NCBI GenBank assembly: GCA_030149175.1
Contig: JASBSA010000002.1
Coordinates: 1-32,448, forward strand
Source: Winogradskyella sp.
GTDB lineage: Bacteria > Bacteroidota > Bacteroidia > Flavobacteriales > Flavobacteriaceae
Direction of reading: 5' to 3'
DNA length: 32,448 nt
Each line of letters begins with the position of its first letter. Positions within the stretch are counted from its first letter, which is position 1. Of this stretch, positions 15,016-32,329 are shown piece by piece. The notes beneath the pieces were generated by a model. It searched no databases. It saw nothing but the letters and a program-made list of their open reading frames with translations, and had not been told where the DNA came from. The position numbers and the translations under genes are program-made.

Positions 15016-16188
15016 ATGAAAAATAATTCCAAAACGCTTTCCATATTAATACCAGATGGTGAAACCACTTTGCTTTCTAATGTGGTTCATAGCCTTTCGC
15101 TTATTGCGCATGTGAAGATTTATGTACTATCTTCTCATAAGAGAAGGTATTTTAAATATTCAATTGATAATAATTGTTTTAAATATTCGCGCTTTATAGA
15201 AAAGTTTATTTATTATGAGAACACTACACCAGAAGAATGGATAGACAAAATTGATGCAACAGTAGAAGATTATAGCATAGATCTTATTATGCCCATTTTT
15301 GATGTAAGTACTAAGAGGATTTTAGAACATCAGAATAATCTTAAAAATAGATCTAAACTCTGTTCTTTGTCTAGCTTAAGCAATTTTGAAACTGCGCTGC
15401 GTAAGGATTTGCTGTATTTATTTTTAAAGTCTAATAATTTACCTTGTCCTGAAAGTATTATTGTAGACTCAAGATTTAAAAATGATTTTGTCAATTTAGA
15501 TTTTCCATTAGTAGCGAAACCAACCTATGGTTTCAATGGTGGAATGGGTGTAAAACTCGTTAATGATAAGAATGAACTATTAAACTATATTAACGCTATA
15601 AAAACCGATAATCCTATATTGCTTCAAAAATTTATAGAAGGTTTTGACGTGACCTGTAACGTGTTATGTAAGAATGGTGATATACAAGCTTACACAATGC
15701 AAAAAGCGGCAATAATAAAGAGTGTTAAGGTTACACCTCAATTTGAGTTTAGTTTCTTTAATGATAAAGCTTTACTTGGGCTTATGAAGGATTTAATGAA
15801 GGCATTAAATTGGTCTGGTGTTGCTAATATAGACTTTAGGTTTGACGAAACAGATAATACATATAAGGTTATAGAAATAAATCCGAGGTTTTGGCTTAAT
15901 ACCGAGGCGTCTGCTTTGGCTGGTGTAAATTTTCCGTATTTATATTGCTTATCTACTTTGGACAATAAAATAGAATTTAACCCAGTTGAAAGTGGTACTT
16001 TTTTACATCTTAAGGCTTTGGTTAAGCGTCTTCAACGTAACCCACTTTTAATTTTTAAGGTTAACTTTTTAATAAAAAACACACCTTTTGGATTTATCAT
16101 AAAAGACCCTCTAGTTCTATGGTGTAAGTTTATATGGAGAACTAATAACATTATATCTTCAAAAATTCTTAAAAGGAAATCAGCTTAG
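15016..16188 (+). CDS. ATP-grasp carboxylate-amine/thiol ligase-like protein
   Basis: A 390-residue cytoplasmic protein with an ATP-grasp fold. The N-terminal Rossmann-like part (about 1-120) is followed by the ATP-binding loop FPLVAKPTYGFNGGMGVKLV, the central VTCNVLCKNG strand and the metal-binding VIEINPRFW motif near residues 290-300. Enzymes of this fold join a carboxylate to an amine or thiol through an acyl-phosphate. The substrate is unknown: there is no peptide-synthesis, cell-wall or natural-product gene beside it. The basic, hydrophobic C-terminus (about 330-390) could associate with membrane. It stands alone, with threonine aldolase starting 29 bases later on the same strand, so cotranscription is possible. 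Confidence 0.8.
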   Translation: MKNNSKTLSILIPDGETTLLSNVVHSLSLIAHVKIYVLSSHKRRYFKYSIDNNCFKYSRFIEKFIYYENTTPEEWIDKIDATVEDYSIDLIMPIFDVSTKRILEHQNNLKNRSKLCSLSSLSNFETALRKDLLYLFLKSNNLPCPESIIVDSRFKNDFVNLDFPLVAKPTYGFNGGMGVKLVNDKNELLNYINAIKTDNPILLQKFIEGFDVTCNVLCKNGDIQAYTMQKAAIIKSVKVTPQFEFSFFNDKALLGLMKDLMKALNWSGVANIDFRFDETDNTYKVIEINPRFWLNTEASALAGVNFPYLYCLSTLDNKIEFNPVESGTFLHLKALVKRLQRNPLLIFKVNFLIKNTPFGFIIKDPLVLWCKFIWRTNNIISSKILKRKSA

Positions 16189-19779: not shown

Positions 19780-20817
19780 ATGGACAAAAACAAAAATGTA
19801 TTTGATAATGTATTACAACTTATAGGTAATACACCACTTATCAAGCTAAATAGAATGACCGCAGACTTCGAAGGCGATTTTTATGCTAAAGTAGAAGCGT
19901 TTAATCCAGGTCATTCATCAAAGGACAGAATTGCACTACACATTATTGAAGAAGCTGAGCGCCAAGGCATTTTAACACCTGGTGATACAATCATAGAAAC
20001 TACCTCTGGTAATACAGGGTTTAGCATAGCTATGGTTAGTATTATCAAAGGTTACGAGTGTATTTTGGCTGTAAGTTCCAAATCTTCAGCAGATAAGATA
20101 GACATGCTAAGATCTATGGGAGCTAAGGTATATGTTTGCCCAGCTCACGTTAATGCAGATGATTCAAGGTCTTATTATCAAGTAGCAAAACGATTACACG
20201 AAGAGATTAAAGGCTCAATTTATATCAATCAATATTTTAATCAATTAAATATTGATGCACATTATAATTCCACAGGTCGAGAAATTTGGAATCAAACAAA
20301 TGGAGAAATTACGCATTTGGTTGCATGTAGTGGTACAGGTGGAACTATCTCTGGAATTGCTAAATACTTAAAAGAGCAAAATCCTAATGTAAAGATAATC
20401 GGAGTGGATGCCTACGGATCTGTTTTGCAAAAATATCATGAAACCAGAGAGTTTGATGAAAAGGAAATTTACCCATATAGAATTGAAGGTTTAGGAAAGA
20501 ATTTAATTCCTACAGCGACGGATTTTGATGCTATTGATAGATTTGTAAAGGTAACTGACGAGGAAAGTGCGCATACAGCAAGGGAAATTTCTAATACAGA
20601 AGGTTTGTTTGTTGGTTACACTAGTGGTGCTGCAATGCAGGCTATAAAGCAATTAAACGAAGAAGGAGAGTTTAAGCCATCAGATAAAATTGTAGTTGTT
20701 TTTCCAGACCATGGATCACGTTACATGAGTAAAGTATATAGTGATAAGTGGATGGAAGACCAAGGCTTTTTTGATAGTAAAAATGAAGTCTCTACAACCA
20801 TTCAGTACATCAAGTAA
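19780..20817 (+). CDS. capA: Cystathionine-beta-synthase-like enzyme, candidate cysteate synthase
   Basis: A 345-residue fold-II PLP enzyme. K48 in NPGHSSKDR binds PLP, the TTSGNTG loop (74-80) and the phosphate-binding CSGTGGT loop (183-189) are intact, and [12 protein letters not shown] resembles cystathionine beta-synthase more than CysK/CysM. There is no regulatory CBS pair. CapA of Capnocytophaga is a CBS-related enzyme that makes cysteate from O-phosphoserine and sulfite. The gene here lies directly upstream of the cysteate acyltransferase, which makes the same role likely. Ordinary cysteine synthase or cystathionine beta-synthase activity remains possible. It has its own promoter, a leader dyad and a terminator, so it is a single-gene transcript beside capB. 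Confidence 0.75.
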
Positions 20818-20837
20818 AATATATGATCAAGAAAATT

Positions 20838-20867
20838 AAAGCCTGCCTTCTAATGGTAGGCTTTTTT
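20838..20867 (+). terminator. Intrinsic terminator after capA
   Basis: Stem AAAGCCTGCC / GGTAGGCTTT (20838-20847 with 20855-20864, one G-T pair), 7-base loop, followed by T's. Confidence 0.85.
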
Positions 20868-20928
20868 ATGTTTAAAACTTAGTGAATACTTAGGTGAAAT
20901 TATATTATGCAGTCATAATAATATTACC

Positions 20929-20936
20929 TAATTTTG
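20929..20936 (+). promoter_or_regulatory. Bacteroidota -7 box for capB
   Basis: TAATTTTG, a perfect TAnnTTTG, about 86 bases before the capB start codon; no clear TTG at -33. It implies an untranslated leader of roughly 80 bases. Confidence 0.55.
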
Positions 20937-21021
20937 TTCACACTAATAAAACTAAATTAAAACTAAAATCTCTTCTATAACTCTTACAGTTTTAGAGAGT
21001 GATTAATGGCAAACGCAACGT

Positions 21022-22281
21022 ATGAAGGATTTATTTGAAAAGATTTATCGAGATAAGGGACCTTTAGGAAAGTGGGCAGCACAAGCGGAAGGTTATTTTG
21101 TATTTCCAAAGCTAGAAGGAGAAATTTCAAATAGAATGAAGTTTCAAGGAAAAGAGGTGATTACTTGGAGTATAAATGACTATTTAGGTCTAGCTAATCA
21201 TCCAGAAGTGAGAAAAGTAGATGCTGAAGCTGCTGCAAAATATGGTTCTGCTTACCCTATGGGAGCTCGTATGATGTCTGGTCATACAGAGTTGCACGAA
21301 CAATTACAAAATGAATTAGCAGCATTTGTTAGTAAAGAAGCAGCTTATCTGCTTAACTTTGGTTATCAAGGTATGGTGTCTACCATAGACGCCTTAGTTT
21401 CTAAAGATGATATTATTGTCTACGATGTAGATGCACACGCTTGTATTATTGATGGTGTTCGTTTGCACATGGGAAAACGTTTTACATACAAGCATAATGA
21501 TGTAGAAAGTTTAGAAAAAAACCTTGAAAGAGCTACAAAAATGGCTGAGCAAACAGGTGGAGGAATCTTAGTGATTTCAGAAGGTGTGTTTGGTATGCGT
21601 GGCGAGCAAGGACGTTTAAAAGAAATAGTTGCTCTAAAGAAGAAATTCAATTTTAGATTATTTGTAGATGATGCACACGGCTTTGGAACTCTAGGAAAAA
21701 CAGGTGCTGGTACAGGCGAGGAGCAAGGTGTGCAAGACGATATTGATGTGTATTTTGCAACATTTGCTAAATCTATGGCAAGTACAGGTGCATTTATTGC
21801 TGGAGATCAAGAAATAATAGACTATTTAAAGTATAACCTGCGTTCGCAGATGTTTGCTAAGTCGTTACAAATGCAACTTGTTGTAGGTGCATTAAAACGA
21901 TTAGATATGTTACGAACCATGCCTGAGCTTAAGCAAAACCTTTGGACGATTGTTAACGCATTACAATCTGGATTAAAAGAGCGTGGTTTTGATATTGGAA
22001 CAACTCAGAGTTGTGTAACGCCAGTATATTTAAAAGGTAGCATTCCTGAAGCAATGGCTTTAGTGAAAGATCTTCGTGAAAACCATGGAATATTCTGTTC
22101 TATAGTAGTTTACCCTGTAATACCTAAAGGATTAATTTTATTAAGAATGATTCCTACAGCAACACATACATTACAAGATGTACAGGAAACATTAGACGCA
22201 TTCGATGCTATTAGAGAGCGTTTAGTAAATGGAACTTACAAAAGAATGTCTGCGGCTTTAATGGCAGCAATGGGCGAATAG
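21022..22281 (+). CDS. capB: Cysteate acyltransferase (3-ketocapnine synthase), serine-palmitoyltransferase-like
   Basis: A 419-residue alpha-oxoamine synthase using PLP. It has NDYLGLANHP and the AYPMGARMMSGHTELH region, the PLP-stacking His H139 (DVDAHACIIDG), DDAHGFGTLG (D217, H219) and the Schiff-base lysine K250 in FATFAKSMASTG. The related enzyme SulA of Alistipes has PLP on Lys251 and a second lysine at 281, which is Ala in serine palmitoyltransferases. Here K280 (MFAKS) sits exactly 30 residues after K250. This supports condensation of cysteate with a fatty acyl thioester to give 3-ketocapnine, the committed step to sulfonolipids, which matter for gliding in Flavobacteria. Cytoplasmic, no signal peptide. 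Confidence 0.85.
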   Translation: MKDLFEKIYRDKGPLGKWAAQAEGYFVFPKLEGEISNRMKFQGKEVITWSINDYLGLANHPEVRKVDAEAAAKYGSAYPMGARMMSGHTELHEQLQNELAAFVSKEAAYLLNFGYQGMVSTIDALVSKDDIIVYDVDAHACIIDGVRLHMGKRFTYKHNDVESLEKNLERATKMAEQTGGGILVISEGVFGMRGEQGRLKEIVALKKKFNFRLFVDDAHGFGTLGKTGAGTGEEQGVQDDIDVYFATFAKSMASTGAFIAGDQEIIDYLKYNLRSQMFAKSLQMQLVVGALKRLDMLRTMPELKQNLWTIVNALQSGLKERGFDIGTTQSCVTPVYLKGSIPEAMALVKDLRENHGIFCSIVVYPVIPKGLILLRMIPTATHTLQDVQETLDAFDAIRERLVNGTYKRMSAALMAAMGE

Positions 22282-22304: not shown

Positions 22305-22340
22305 TAAAAAAGGCTTTGCTAACAGCAAAGCTTTTTTTTT
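22305..22340. terminator. Bidirectional terminator between capB and the GNAT gene
   Basis: Stem GCTTTGCT / AGCAAAGC (22313-22320 with 22324-22331), loop AAC, with an A-run on the left and a T-run on the right, serving the two converging genes. Confidence 0.85.
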
Positions 22341-22343
22341 GAT

Positions 22344-23462
22344 TTATAAATCTTTTCTAAATGTTTTTCGTCTTTTGTAGACAACAGGGTCAAAATGCTT
22401 CCAGATTTTTTTAATGGCCTCGTTATCTTCTAGTTCAGGTGTTCTGTAACACGTCTTGATACCTTTTTCTTTGAAGGTTTTATAATATTCGTTAAATATT
22501 AAGGCATGTACTCCTTTATTTTGATATTCTGGATGTATACCTATTAAATAAAATATAGCGTCCTTATTGTTTTTCTTTGCCTTCAATAAATGTAAAAATC
22601 CAAAAGGGAATAGTTTACCATTAGTTTTTTTTAAAGCCTTGGCAAAGCTAGGCATAACAATGGCAAACCCAACGAGTTTGTTATTTGCGTCCATAACGAA
22701 CTTTATGTATTCAGGATTTACAAAGCCAATAAACTTTTTCTTGAAATATTTTTTCTGTAAATCTGTGACTTCAACAAAAGATGAGAGTGATGCATAGCTT
22801 TCGTTGAATAAATCAAACATTTCATCTACGTAAGGCATTAATTCTTCAGTCTTGTCAAATTTTAATGCTCTGAGCTTATATCTTTGCTTTATTAGAGATT
22901 GCGCTTTAGTAAATGTTTCTGGTTTAACATTGCTAAAAGGGAATTTGCTCTCGGCATATTCTTTTTCTATAGTGTACCCATGATGCTTGTAATGGTCTAT
23001 ATAGTAAGGATAATTATACCAAGTCATCATAGAAGCGATGCTATCAAATCCTTCTGTCAACACACCAACTTTATCCATATTAGAAAACCCTACAGGACCT
23101 TCAGCGTATTTTAGTTTATTTTGTTTGCCAATATCTTCAACTGTTTTAAGAAGTGCTTTACTGACTTCGAAATCATCAACAAAGTCAAACCAGCCAAAAC
23201 GCATTTTTTTAATCTTCTGCTTTTCAACCTCCAGCCAATTCACAATAGCAGCGATTCTTCCAACGACTTCATTTCCTTTATAAGCAAGAAAAAAACGAGC
23301 TTCAGCATCATTAAATATTGGGTTTTTGTCCTTATTAAAGGTTTCTAACTCTTGCTTTATAATTGGAGGAACCCAGTACTCCGAGTCTTTATAGAGTGAA
23401 AACGGAAACTTAACAAAGGTTTTTAAGCCTTTTCGAGTTGTAACTTCTTTAACTGTTATCAT
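22344..23462 (-). CDS. GNAT-fold N-acyltransferase family protein, candidate capnine N-acyltransferase
   Basis: A 372-residue cytoplasmic protein of the large GNAT-like family related to E. coli YghO. Typical blocks are FVKFPFSLYKDSEYWVPP, the FLAYKGNEVVGRIAAIVN strand, MRFGWFDFVDD, the GPVGFSNMDKVGVLTEGFD and WYNYPYYIDHYKHHGY region, and the C-terminal acyl-CoA-binding GNAT core (IFYLIGIHPEYQNKGVHALIFNEYY). Bacterial ceramide synthase (bCerS) of Caulobacter has this fold. Because the gene ends 63 bases from capB, a role in N-acylating capnine to mature sulfonolipid is plausible, though unproven. It is the second gene of an operon, starting 8 bases after the outer-membrane protein gene. Confidence 0.75.
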   Translation of the reverse strand: MITVKEVTTRKGLKTFVKFPFSLYKDSEYWVPPIIKQELETFNKDKNPIFNDAEARFFLAYKGNEVVGRIAAIVNWLEVEKQKIKKMRFGWFDFVDDFEVSKALLKTVEDIGKQNKLKYAEGPVGFSNMDKVGVLTEGFDSIASMMTWYNYPYYIDHYKHHGYTIEKEYAESKFPFSNVKPETFTKAQSLIKQRYKLRALKFDKTEELMPYVDEMFDLFNESYASLSSFVEVTDLQKKYFKKKFIGFVNPEYIKFVMDANNKLVGFAIVMPSFAKALKKTNGKLFPFGFLHLLKAKKNNKDAIFYLIGIHPEYQNKGVHALIFNEYYKTFKEKGIKTCYRTPELEDNEAIKKIWKHFDPVVYKRRKTFRKDL

Positions 23463-23470
23463 GTGGGAAT

Positions 23471-24457
23471 TTATAAACCATCAGAATCAAAATTATCCTC
23501 TTTTCTTTTCTTCTTTCGTTTTTTCTTAAAGTTACCTGTGTTACCATTACCATTGTCAATTTCCTTGTCTTTGTGAAAATCTAAACGGTAAGAGGCCCCA
23601 AAAGCAATATTGAATACGGAAGGAGTGTCTTTAGTATTAAAAGCAATATTAGCATCTAGCTGAAAATCTTTTGTCCATAAGTAGGCACCACCAACCCTAA
23701 AAATATTATCGGCATAGAAATCGCTACTAATACCTTGTGCTTCACCAAATACCACCCATTGCGGTGTAAAAGAGTGCGTAAGGGTAAAGATATATTGAAA
23801 GTCAGAATAATCAGATCCAATCCTATCTTTTATTAAATTCATAACAAATACCCAACCACCATTAAAATTGTTTTGAGTGGCAATCATAACTTTTGGACTT
23901 ATTCCGCTTTGATCACTAGAATTACTAAAAGCAGTATAAGGTACAAAAGGATTGTTTTTAGTGTCAAAATTTGCACCTGCATATATCGATACTGCCGGAA
24001 TTAAAGATTTCCACTGAAATTTTCTGTTAGCATGATAACTGTATAAGTTTGGCTTAGCTTCTTCAGCATTTTTATAGGGATCATAAACTAAATATTTAGC
24101 CCCAAGAGTTAGGTTTCTAAAATTAGCACGCTTGTCTTCAAAAGGAACTGAAGAACTATTGTAGGTAACATTATCGTTTTGATAGATGCCATCTAATGAA
24201 ATCTCAAGCTGCTCAAACAATAACCCATATCTAATCGAAAAATCTATACCAAACCCTGATATTTCATACTGTAAAGGGGTATGTTCTTCATTCACAGTAT
24301 AGGCACCGACCTCAGCTTGAACTACATTAGTACCTACTGAAAATGCACTTTCTGAAACTCCGGGACGGTTAGAGTTTATTACTTCTGTGTATTGAGCATT
24401 TGCCAAATTGTAAGTCAGTACTAAAAGAAGAATAAAAAAGGATTTGAGAACTCTCAT
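23471..24457 (-). CDS. Outer-membrane beta-barrel-type protein (phenol MetA-like transporter family)
   Basis: A protein of 328 residues from the ATG at 24457-24455. That start gives a clean signal peptide (MRVLKSFFILLLVLTYNLANAQ); a TTG seven codons upstream is less likely. The mature part alternates amphipathic beta strands (SFSVGTNVVQAEVGAYTV, FGIDFSIRYGL, NLTLGAKYLVYD, FNIAFGASYRLDF) like the MetA-pathway transporter family of outer-membrane proteins. The C-terminal 40 residues are a Gly/Asn then Lys/Arg-rich tail ending in an acidic stretch. It is cotranscribed with the GNAT gene (8-base gap). Substrate is unknown; a link to outer-membrane sulfonolipid is suggested only by position. Confidence 0.75.
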   Translation of the reverse strand: MRVLKSFFILLLVLTYNLANAQYTEVINSNRPGVSESAFSVGTNVVQAEVGAYTVNEEHTPLQYEISGFGIDFSIRYGLLFEQLEISLDGIYQNDNVTYNSSSVPFEDKRANFRNLTLGAKYLVYDPYKNAEEAKPNLYSYHANRKFQWKSLIPAVSIYAGANFDTKNNPFVPYTAFSNSSDQSGISPKVMIATQNNFNGGWVFVMNLIKDRIGSDYSDFQYIFTLTHSFTPQWVVFGEAQGISSDFYADNIFRVGGAYLWTKDFQLDANIAFNTKDTPSVFNIAFGASYRLDFHKDKEIDNGNGNTGNFKKKRKKKRKEDNFDSDGL

Positions 24458-24537
24458 TATTTTTTGCTTTAAATTCAAATATATAGATTTTAATGTTTTT
24501 TTAAGGAAATATAACGGAATATAAGTAACTATAATTG

Positions 24538-30251: not shown

Positions 30252-31511
30252 TTATCCTCTGGTTCTTCTTGAGCTAGATCTTGTAGAACTTTGGTTGCTT
30301 TTTCTACTTGTGTTTGATCTTTTCGAAACCGAAGATGACTTTCTTTTGTTTTGAACAGTACTTCGTTGTTTATTACTTTTAGAACTACTTCTACTATATA
30401 TACGAGAATTAGTGCTATTTGGTTTTGATGCTGTAGTACTTTTTGTTCTATTCACTTTATTAGACACAGAACTATTACCTCGGGTCACATTATTTCTAGA
30501 ATTTGTACTTCTAGAGATATTATTAGTACGTGTAGACCTTGTCGGTGTTGATACTTTGTTACTAGATCGAGTAGTTCTAATGCTCCTACTATCATTATTA
30601 TTTCTTGCATTTGGCTTAGAAACTCTGTTTGTAGATCGTGTTTCAGATGTTTTATTACTTCTGGTAACTGTTCTAGATGTACCGGCTTCAGAATTACGGG
30701 ATGCTGTACTTCGAGATGAATGCTCTGCTAATCGTGTTGTACGTGTTCTTGTAATTTCAGCGTTTCTTCTAGATACGGTTCTTTGTATTGTGCGCTCGCT
30801 TCTATTTCTAGGAGTCTGTGCATAACTATCACTATTGTTTCGTCTTACAACCTGAGTTTTTCCTCGTCTTCCTGCATTAACATTGTAATATCTTACATTG
30901 TTTCTGTATGGTCTGTACCAAATGTGTCTAACAGGTGTGTAGTATTGTCTGTAAGGGTTAACATTGATTACACAGTAACTAACAGGTGGAACAATATAGA
31001 ATCTGTGCCATGGTCTGTACACGTAAGCTCTGTTGTACACGTTTATATATCCGTCGTATCTCCAATACACATTGTTTCTGTAATACACATTTAGTCCACC
31101 AATTCTGCTAATTCTGTTAAAACTATTATATGTTATAAAGATGTCACCAATTTGATTTACTCTCCCGTAAAAATCATAGTAGATAGGCGTGTTTTCAATT
31201 TGAATGATTGCACCAAAACTATCGTATTGTACATAAGGATTGTAATCGTATCCAGAGTTAAAACTTAGGCTAAAACCTGGAGCGTCTATATTAACATTTA
31301 CGTCTGGTCCATAATCCGGAATATAAAAGTCGAACTGACCATCTCTGTAAACAGAAAACTCAATACCTCCTTCTGTAAATATGAAAGAATTACCATAACC
31401 TCTCACATAGTTGTTTGTAGAAGCATCAGCTTCAGATGTTGTTGTGGTGGTTGCATATGTAGCAGTTGAAAATGCCACTAAACTTGCTAATAAAAATAGA
31501 ATCCGTTTCAT
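30252..31511 (-). CDS. Secreted repeat protein with Arg/Ser/Thr/Asn-rich basic tail
   Basis: A 419-residue exported protein of no known function. After a signal peptide (LLASLVAFSTATYA) comes a beta-rich domain (about 35-220) with FTEGGIEFSVYRDGQFDFYIPD and repeated units such as YYDFYGRVNQIGDIF and ITYNSFNRISRIGGLN, then a Tyr/Arg/Asn-rich stretch. The last ~195 residues are low-complexity Arg, Ser, Thr, Asn and Lys with almost no acidic residues. The neighbouring gene upstream encodes a shorter paralogue of the N-terminal domain without this tail. A sigma-54-type promoter precedes it. The tail may bind polyanionic surface glycan or DNA; this is inferred from charge alone. Confidence 0.75.
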   Translation of the reverse strand: MKRILFLLASLVAFSTATYATTTTTSEADASTNNYVRGYGNSFIFTEGGIEFSVYRDGQFDFYIPDYGPDVNVNIDAPGFSLSFNSGYDYNPYVQYDSFGAIIQIENTPIYYDFYGRVNQIGDIFITYNSFNRISRIGGLNVYYRNNVYWRYDGYINVYNRAYVYRPWHRFYIVPPVSYCVINVNPYRQYYTPVRHIWYRPYRNNVRYYNVNAGRRGKTQVVRRNNSDSYAQTPRNRSERTIQRTVSRRNAEITRTRTTRLAEHSSRSTASRNSEAGTSRTVTRSNKTSETRSTNRVSKPNARNNNDSRSIRTTRSSNKVSTPTRSTRTNNISRSTNSRNNVTRGNSSVSNKVNRTKSTTASKPNSTNSRIYSRSSSKSNKQRSTVQNKRKSSSVSKRSNTSRKSNQSSTRSSSRRTRG

Positions 31512-31669: not shown

Positions 31670-32329
31670 TTATTTATGTTTTAATTTTTTTTGCTTTTTT
31701 ATCTTACCGTTCTTTCTGTAGTAGTAAAATTCATTGTCGTTCCAATTTTCATCCCATTCATCTTCATAAGTATATTGGTTATAAGTGCCTGAACCATAAA
31801 TTCCACTTCCTACATTACTATGATTCACAAAACCTCTGGTTCCGATTACCATACCGTATCTGTCATAAAGAATGTGTAGTCCTCCAACTTGTTTTAGTTG
31901 TCCGCGTCTATAACTCATGTACACTGTACCAGCACGTTTTATTCTTCCTTGGCTATCGTAGTTGATAAAAACATTTCCTATTCTTCGTACTCTTCCCAAT
32001 CTATCGTGAGTAATAATTACTCCTCTACCAGTATAATATTGATTTGTGAATGGAGCACCAAATGTTCGATTTGTCTCTCGTCTGTTACGTTTGTAATAGT
32101 AATCGTCATTACTTGGGTATGTTGTAAAAACTTCCGTATTAAAATCGAAGCTTCCATCAGGGAAGATTAAAAATTCAACACCTCGTTCAATAAACGAAAT
32201 AGGTTGTGAGAATCCATAACGCTTAACTTTTAAATCTTCCCCATTTAAAACAGCATTTCCTGCTGTTGTTGCTGTGGCAGATGTAAGTCCTGCTAACACC
32301 ATTGCCAAAAAAAGTAATTTACTTTTCAT
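31670..32329 (-). CDS. Secreted beta-repeat protein, short paralogue
   Basis: A 219-residue exported protein of unknown function, paralogous to the N-terminal half of the next gene downstream. After the signal peptide (LFLAMVLAGLTSATA) it has FIERGVEFLIFPDGSFDFN, then four units of about 16 residues: IITHDRLGRVRRIGNVF, INYDSQGRIKRAGTVY, MSYRRGQLKQVGGLH and ILYDRYGMVIG. The consensus hxYDxxGRhxxIGxh looks like consecutive beta-hairpins, reminiscent of YD or MORN-like repeats but shorter. An acidic/aromatic linker (YEDEWDENWNDNEFYYY) leads to a short Lys-rich end. It has a sigma-54-type promoter and its own terminator. Confidence 0.78.
   Translation of the reverse strand: MKSKLLFLAMVLAGLTSATATTAGNAVLNGEDLKVKRYGFSQPISFIERGVEFLIFPDGSFDFNTEVFTTYPSNDDYYYKRNRRETNRTFGAPFTNQYYTGRGVIITHDRLGRVRRIGNVFINYDSQGRIKRAGTVYMSYRRGQLKQVGGLHILYDRYGMVIGTRGFVNHSNVGSGIYGSGTYNQYTYEDEWDENWNDNEFYYYRKNGKIKKQKKLKHK

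Follow-up and report, generated by a model that had tools for sequence, protein, structure and literature searches.

A predicted capA-capB sulfonolipid locus in Winogradskyella sp. and a convergent tandem-GNAT gene as a candidate for the N-acylation step

The neighbouring genes capA and capB of Winogradskyella sp. very probably form the ordinary flavobacterial entry to sulfonolipid synthesis, and they seem to be transcribed apart. The stretch of DNA analysed (the window, 32,448 nt) is part of contig C97 of a genome of 2.53 Mb that is 75% complete. According to the available text of a review (PMC10191378), sulfonolipids are abundant in the membranes of Cytophagia and Flavobacteria, have a link to gliding and affect both hosts and choanoflagellates. 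The sequences show the membership of both proteins in the known sulfonolipid families CapA and CapB, and from these memberships we infer that the enzymes would be active and that Winogradskyella sp. would make a sulfonolipid. The finding of capA and capB is routine. The only part of the locus with novelty is a lead on the next gene, which encodes a tandem-GNAT protein. The features of the locus are as follows.

19780..20817, plus strand: capA, cysteate synthase, 345 aa (NCBIfam NF053679 CysteaSynCapA; near capB in 79/80 loci)
20838..20864, plus strand: terminator-like hairpin after capA, 10-pair stem and T run
20929..20936, plus strand: TAATTTTG, likely -7 promoter box of capB, from its sequence (motif TANNTTTG)
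21022..22281, plus strand: capB, cysteate acyltransferase, 419 aa, with PLP lysine K250 and diagnostic lysine K280 (PDB matches, K280, tree)
22306..22338, plus strand: second terminator-like hairpin, after capB and before the convergent GNAT gene (stem of 15 pairs, T run)
22344..23462, minus strand: tandem-GNAT acyltransferase, candidate capnine N-acyltransferase, 372 aa (relatives beside SPT and capB; fold)
23471..24478, minus strand: Phenol_MetA_deg-family protein, 335 aa (PF13557, 114.2 bits; syntenic in 58/80 loci)

In the proposed pathway, CapA would make cysteate from O-phosphoserine and sulfite, and CapB would make 3-ketocapnine from cysteate and acyl-ACP. Both reactions are taken from published work on relatives and are reviewed, in the text available, in PMC10191378. 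A short-chain reductase (CapC) encoded elsewhere in the genome would then give capnine, which would be N-acylated to sulfobacin-type sulfonolipids.

An earlier note on this DNA had read the open reading frames at 19780-20817 (+, 345 aa) and 21022-22281 (+, 419 aa) as capA and capB. Both frames were found at these positions. The first protein scored 654.9 bits with NF053679, the curated equivalog model for cysteate synthase, against a cut-off of 600, and this bears out its reading as CapA. It stayed below the cut-offs of the rival models (386.9 bits vs 510.25 for cystathionine beta-synthase; 270 for CysK). The protein was told apart from CysK and cystathionine beta-synthase by model scores only; a grouping with CysK had been named in the earlier note as evidence against its reading. 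The note had also expected routine annotation to misname capA. This did not hold, because NCBIfam now includes a CapA model that the protein passes, and capA would be named correctly. A second relative of CapA, at C38, was 53% identical to the window's CapA and scored 467 bits, below the CapA cut-off of 600. It was the only further relative found in the genome at E 0.001 or better.

The second protein had its best PDB matches in 28eh, deposited as a cysteate C-fatty-acyltransferase (E 4.7e-216), and in SulA, 7u7h (E 5.6e-176), and it aligned with both over its entire or almost entire length. The best SPT was far behind (4.3e-73). Eleven NCBIfam models matched CapB and none was passed, the top one being SPT with 304.9 bits vs a cut-off of 640. 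The window's CapB was 96% identical to that of a Psychroserpens, which suggests a flavobacterium close to that genus. SulA of Alistipes finegoldii (PMC9304779) belongs to the same family and was aligned to residues 1-414 of the window's CapB, which has equivalents of both its PLP lysine and its Lys281. According to the available text of that paper, SulA has Lys251 and Lys281, SPT has Ala at the Lys281 position, and Lys281 is the one clear active-site difference of SulA from SPT (PMC9304779). K280 of the window's protein lies 30 residues past the PLP lysine K250, as the earlier note had observed, and so repeats the spacing of the SulA pair.

We aligned 148 AOS proteins from the fetched loci, the window included and some genomes present twice. 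N52, H139, K250 and R375 were invariant in all of them. Position 280 was Lys in 134/134 strong CapB proteins and in 5/5 divergent CapB-like proteins, and Ala in 9/9 SPT-like proteins. The distinction between Lys and Ala that the earlier note had used separates the 139 CapB-type proteins from the nine SPT-like ones. Asn was found at this position in four Kbl/BioF-like paralogues, of which two belong to the window's own genome. In a tree built without the PDB sequences 28eh and 7u7h, CapB and the divergent form made one clade (support 0.995) and SPT another (0.978), with the four Kbl/BioF-like paralogues outside the CapB clade; mid_L087, L090, L091 and L092 in this tree are cut copies of true CapB. 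A grouping of CapB with BioF had been named in the earlier note as evidence against its reading. The tree placed CapB apart from both the Kbl/BioF-like proteins and SPT, and together with the PDB matches and the Lys281 equivalent this upholds the assignment of the second gene as capB.

Of the 57 genomes that encode a CapB-type protein, 22 also have SPT: G033, G091, G099 and 19 members of family f21 (loci L124 and L185-L189 represent the genomes with both). In these counts, a protein was taken as CapB from a score of 430 bits upwards, which admits the divergent form in 19 of the 57, and as SPT from 399 bits upwards. The CapB of 19 of the 22 was this divergent form, 47-51% identical, and Lys280 was present in 5/5 checked. 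In the available text of a review, sulfonolipids and sphingolipids are described as perhaps mutually exclusive (PMC10191378).

Gene order was compared in the nearest 80 CapB loci, the 80 top-ranking ones among at least 590 in a collection of named genomes, which thus represent the nearest relatives. capA was near capB in 79 of them, and an S9 peptidase gene was present in 79/80. Another 20 CapB-type loci were fetched with about 5 kb on either side. Among these, capA was near capB in 3/5 loci of the window's family and in 3/15 of other families. The pairing is common in the window's bacterial family and has mostly been lost outside it. Two of the three capA genes from other families were scanned, and both scored below the CapA cut-off. 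They adjoin capB at L179:3862-4941 (548.2 bits) and L182:3805-4854 (508.8 bits). Since these genes score lower and yet adjoin capB, the NCBIfam cut-off of 600 bits may exclude true CapA.

The locus is a standard one that has already been described. In Capnocytophaga ochracea, the adjacency of capA and capB is published as consecutive accessions in the text available (PMC12927429). These proteins (ACU93374 and ACU93375; Liu et al. 2022, via PMC10191378 and PMC12927429) belong to the same families, and at the level of family and adjacency we found no difference of kind. Alistipes is reported, in the available text of PMC10191378, to have a different, archaeal-type cysteate synthase that is not a CapA homologue, whereas the window has CapA.

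A different reading of the pair is that a cystathionine beta-synthase or cysteine synthase and an enzyme of SPT/Kbl/BioF type are neighbours by chance and that no sulfonolipid is made. Both proteins do lie within those superfamilies, as the scores of 386.9 bits for CapA with the cystathionine beta-synthase model and of 304.9 for CapB with the SPT model indicate, and the relative at C38 (53%, 467 bits) shows that close relatives of CapA with another function exist. However, CapA passes its own cut-off and fails those of the rival models named above, CapB has Lys rather than Ala or Asn at position 280 and falls in a separate clade, and the pair is conserved. We consider the chance pairing highly improbable and retain the reading as a sulfonolipid locus.

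The gap between capA and capB contains a terminator-like hairpin and a copy of TANNTTTG, which we take to be the -7 box of Bacteroidota promoters. Among 81 loci, the window included, 77 had both frames called, and their gaps were compared with mononucleotide shuffles, which keep base but not dinucleotide content. TANNTTTG was present in 68/77 gaps vs 11.4 in the shuffles. Its nearest copy lay 24-40 bases upstream of capB in 46 of the 68 gaps; the copy in the window starts 93 bases upstream. A hairpin with a T run was found in 26/77 gaps vs 0.2 in shuffles by a stricter script, which missed the window's own hairpin at 20838-20864. Because of the hairpin in the gap and the presence of TANNTTTG in 68/77 gaps, capB probably has a promoter of its own, and the two genes would be adjacent without forming a plain operon.

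The earlier note had reported that no CapC is present in the window. A search of the genome with PF00106 (short-chain dehydrogenase) gave 10 places, nine of them over the cut-off and one of these nine partial. None of the 10 was on the window's contig, in agreement with the note. The absence is normal, because in C. gleum and A. finegoldii, too, the reductase genes are separate from the first two genes (PMC11211663, in the text available). L196, one of the nine proteins, was compared with the PDB and matched only SDRs with other functions. A CerR-like epimerase was not found in the window's genome by a search at E 1e-15. Across 12 genomes, it was present in 5/5 with SPT, in 0/5 with CapB only (the window's genome included) and in 0/2 with neither.

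Downstream of capB lies the convergent GNAT gene, with the second terminator-like hairpin between them. The Phenol_MetA_deg gene is on the same strand as the GNAT gene, 8 bases upstream of it. The GNAT protein had weak family matches and a confident structure model of the tandem-GNAT kind (mean pLDDT 87.9). A fold search with this model returned tandem GNATs of other functions, and neither the protein nor its family profile had an informative match in PDB sequence searches. Only one member of the GNAT family was found in the window's genome.

In 57 of the nearest 80 loci, a GNAT gene was found no further than 10 kb from capB. The remaining 23 loci had no GNAT nearby; 20 of them were submitted to a whole-genome search, L077 being left out, and 3/3 positive controls were found. 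In this way, 19 named genomes were searched whole. Twelve have a GNAT elsewhere. In the other seven, which are Gramella, Mesonia, Gillisia, Salegentibacter, Psychroflexus and two other MAGs, none was found. More widely, and among the matches listed, GNAT relatives were present in 150/158 Bacteroidota genomes, including 32/35 genomes with CapB and without SPT. No relative was found in G053 and G041, and G064 gave a partial match of 61 bits only. Genomes with CapB or SPT had a GNAT relative in 147/151 cases vs 3/7 with neither (p 9e-5 among the matches listed, a Fisher value that ignores kinship). After the removal of family f10, the genomes with neither all had a relative (3/3), and the association was gone.

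The family is also linked to sphingolipid genes. In 116 genomes with 117 SPT genes, a GNAT relative was no more than 1 kb from at least 61 of the genes, with a median gap of 93 bp. An NAD-dependent epimerase-type protein stood beside the SPT-GNAT pair in 4/4 loci whose neighbour was scanned. A bacterial ceramide synthase and its reductase have been described in Caulobacter (PMC11087976, PMC11324152), and ceramide synthase proteins of Bacteroides fragilis have been used as references (PMC10865984), according to the text available from these sources. The GNAT is likened to the ceramide synthases CCNA_01212 of Caulobacter and BF9343_4218 of B. fragilis (PMC10865984 and PMC11087976, text available in part) through the position of its family beside SPT and an epimerase-type reductase in many Bacteroidota. 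In contrast to the ceramide synthase setting, the neighbour of the window's GNAT is a convergent capB.

GNAT trees, made with a third of the named-locus sequences (L222 being a mislabelled repeat of L163), had three clades: an SPT-linked clade, a clade of sequences that come from CapB genomes in other families, and the clade of the window, which is separate from the main SPT-linked one. In L148, a GNAT of the window's clade lies between SPT and an epimerase. Twelve genomes without CapB also contribute members to the window's clade (36-43% identity), and the stretches fetched from them contain no AOS gene. Window-type GNATs were found in clusters with ketosynthase, FabA-like and GT2 genes at L137:4925-9289, together with an ACP, and at L151:9866-14746, together with an SDR; both genomes carry divergent CapB and SPT. 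In five flavobacterial genomes (L155-L158 and L160), the block of GNAT, Phenol_MetA_deg, YfhO and glycosyltransferase occurs without capB. The 60 fetched regions were chosen by us and are not a random sample.

It is possible that the tandem GNAT is the N-acyltransferase that converts capnine or 3-ketocapnine to sulfonolipid, as the counterpart of bacterial ceramide synthase. The repeated position of its family beside SPT (at least 61/117 genes) and an epimerase-type reductase (4/4 scanned) is what would be expected of a ceramide synthase, and L148 brings the window's own clade into that setting. In the genomes with CapB and without SPT, 32/35 of which have a relative among the matches listed, a ceramide-synthase-like GNAT would have to use capnine or ketocapnine. 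It is also consistent with this role that no second family member was found in the genome of the window's GNAT and that 12 of the 19 genomes without a GNAT near capB have one elsewhere. However, the GNAT is not present wherever the substrate would be made, being missing in seven of the 19 capB genomes and in G053 and G041, with the partial match in G064. Relatives of the window type are present in 12 genomes without CapB, those in L137 and L151 are clustered with ketosynthase, FabA-like and GT2 genes, and a single outgroup family, f10, accounts for the co-occurrence signal. Moreover, the gene is convergent with capB across a terminator, and L155-L158 and L160 keep its neighbours without capB. 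We therefore regard the N-acyltransferase role as rather unlikely. The GNAT as the N-acyltransferase outright was rejected, because capB genomes without it exist.

We lean towards the interpretation that the GNAT acts on another substrate and that its place beside capB is old flavobacterial synteny only. As five genomes keep the other neighbours of the GNAT (Phenol_MetA_deg, YfhO and glycosyltransferase) without capB, the adjacency may be old synteny. The family members in CapB-less genomes and in the ketosynthase and FabA-like cluster, and the capB genomes without a GNAT, point in the same direction. The repeated linkage of the family to SPT and its presence in 32/35 CapB-only genomes (among the matches listed) speak against another substrate. 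The useful outcome is one concrete candidate gene for the N-acylation step, for which the open-access (PMC) literature searched names no enzyme in the text available. If the GNAT were the N-acyltransferase, one acyltransferase family would serve the sphingolipids and the sulfonolipids of Bacteroidota alike. The sampled genomes of Gramella, Mesonia, Gillisia, Salegentibacter and Psychroflexus, which have capA and capB without the GNAT, make a useful named set.

Two minor observations concern other parts of the window. An ATP-grasp protein encoded at 15016-16188 was present in one of the 80 neighbouring loci; because of this rarity, its gene is probably an insertion among otherwise conserved genes. 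Towards the end of the window, two seemingly related open reading frames of 419 and 219 aa lie on the minus strand at 30252-31511 and 31670-32329, and the 419-aa frame has a long C-terminal tail rich in Ser, Arg, Thr and Asn.
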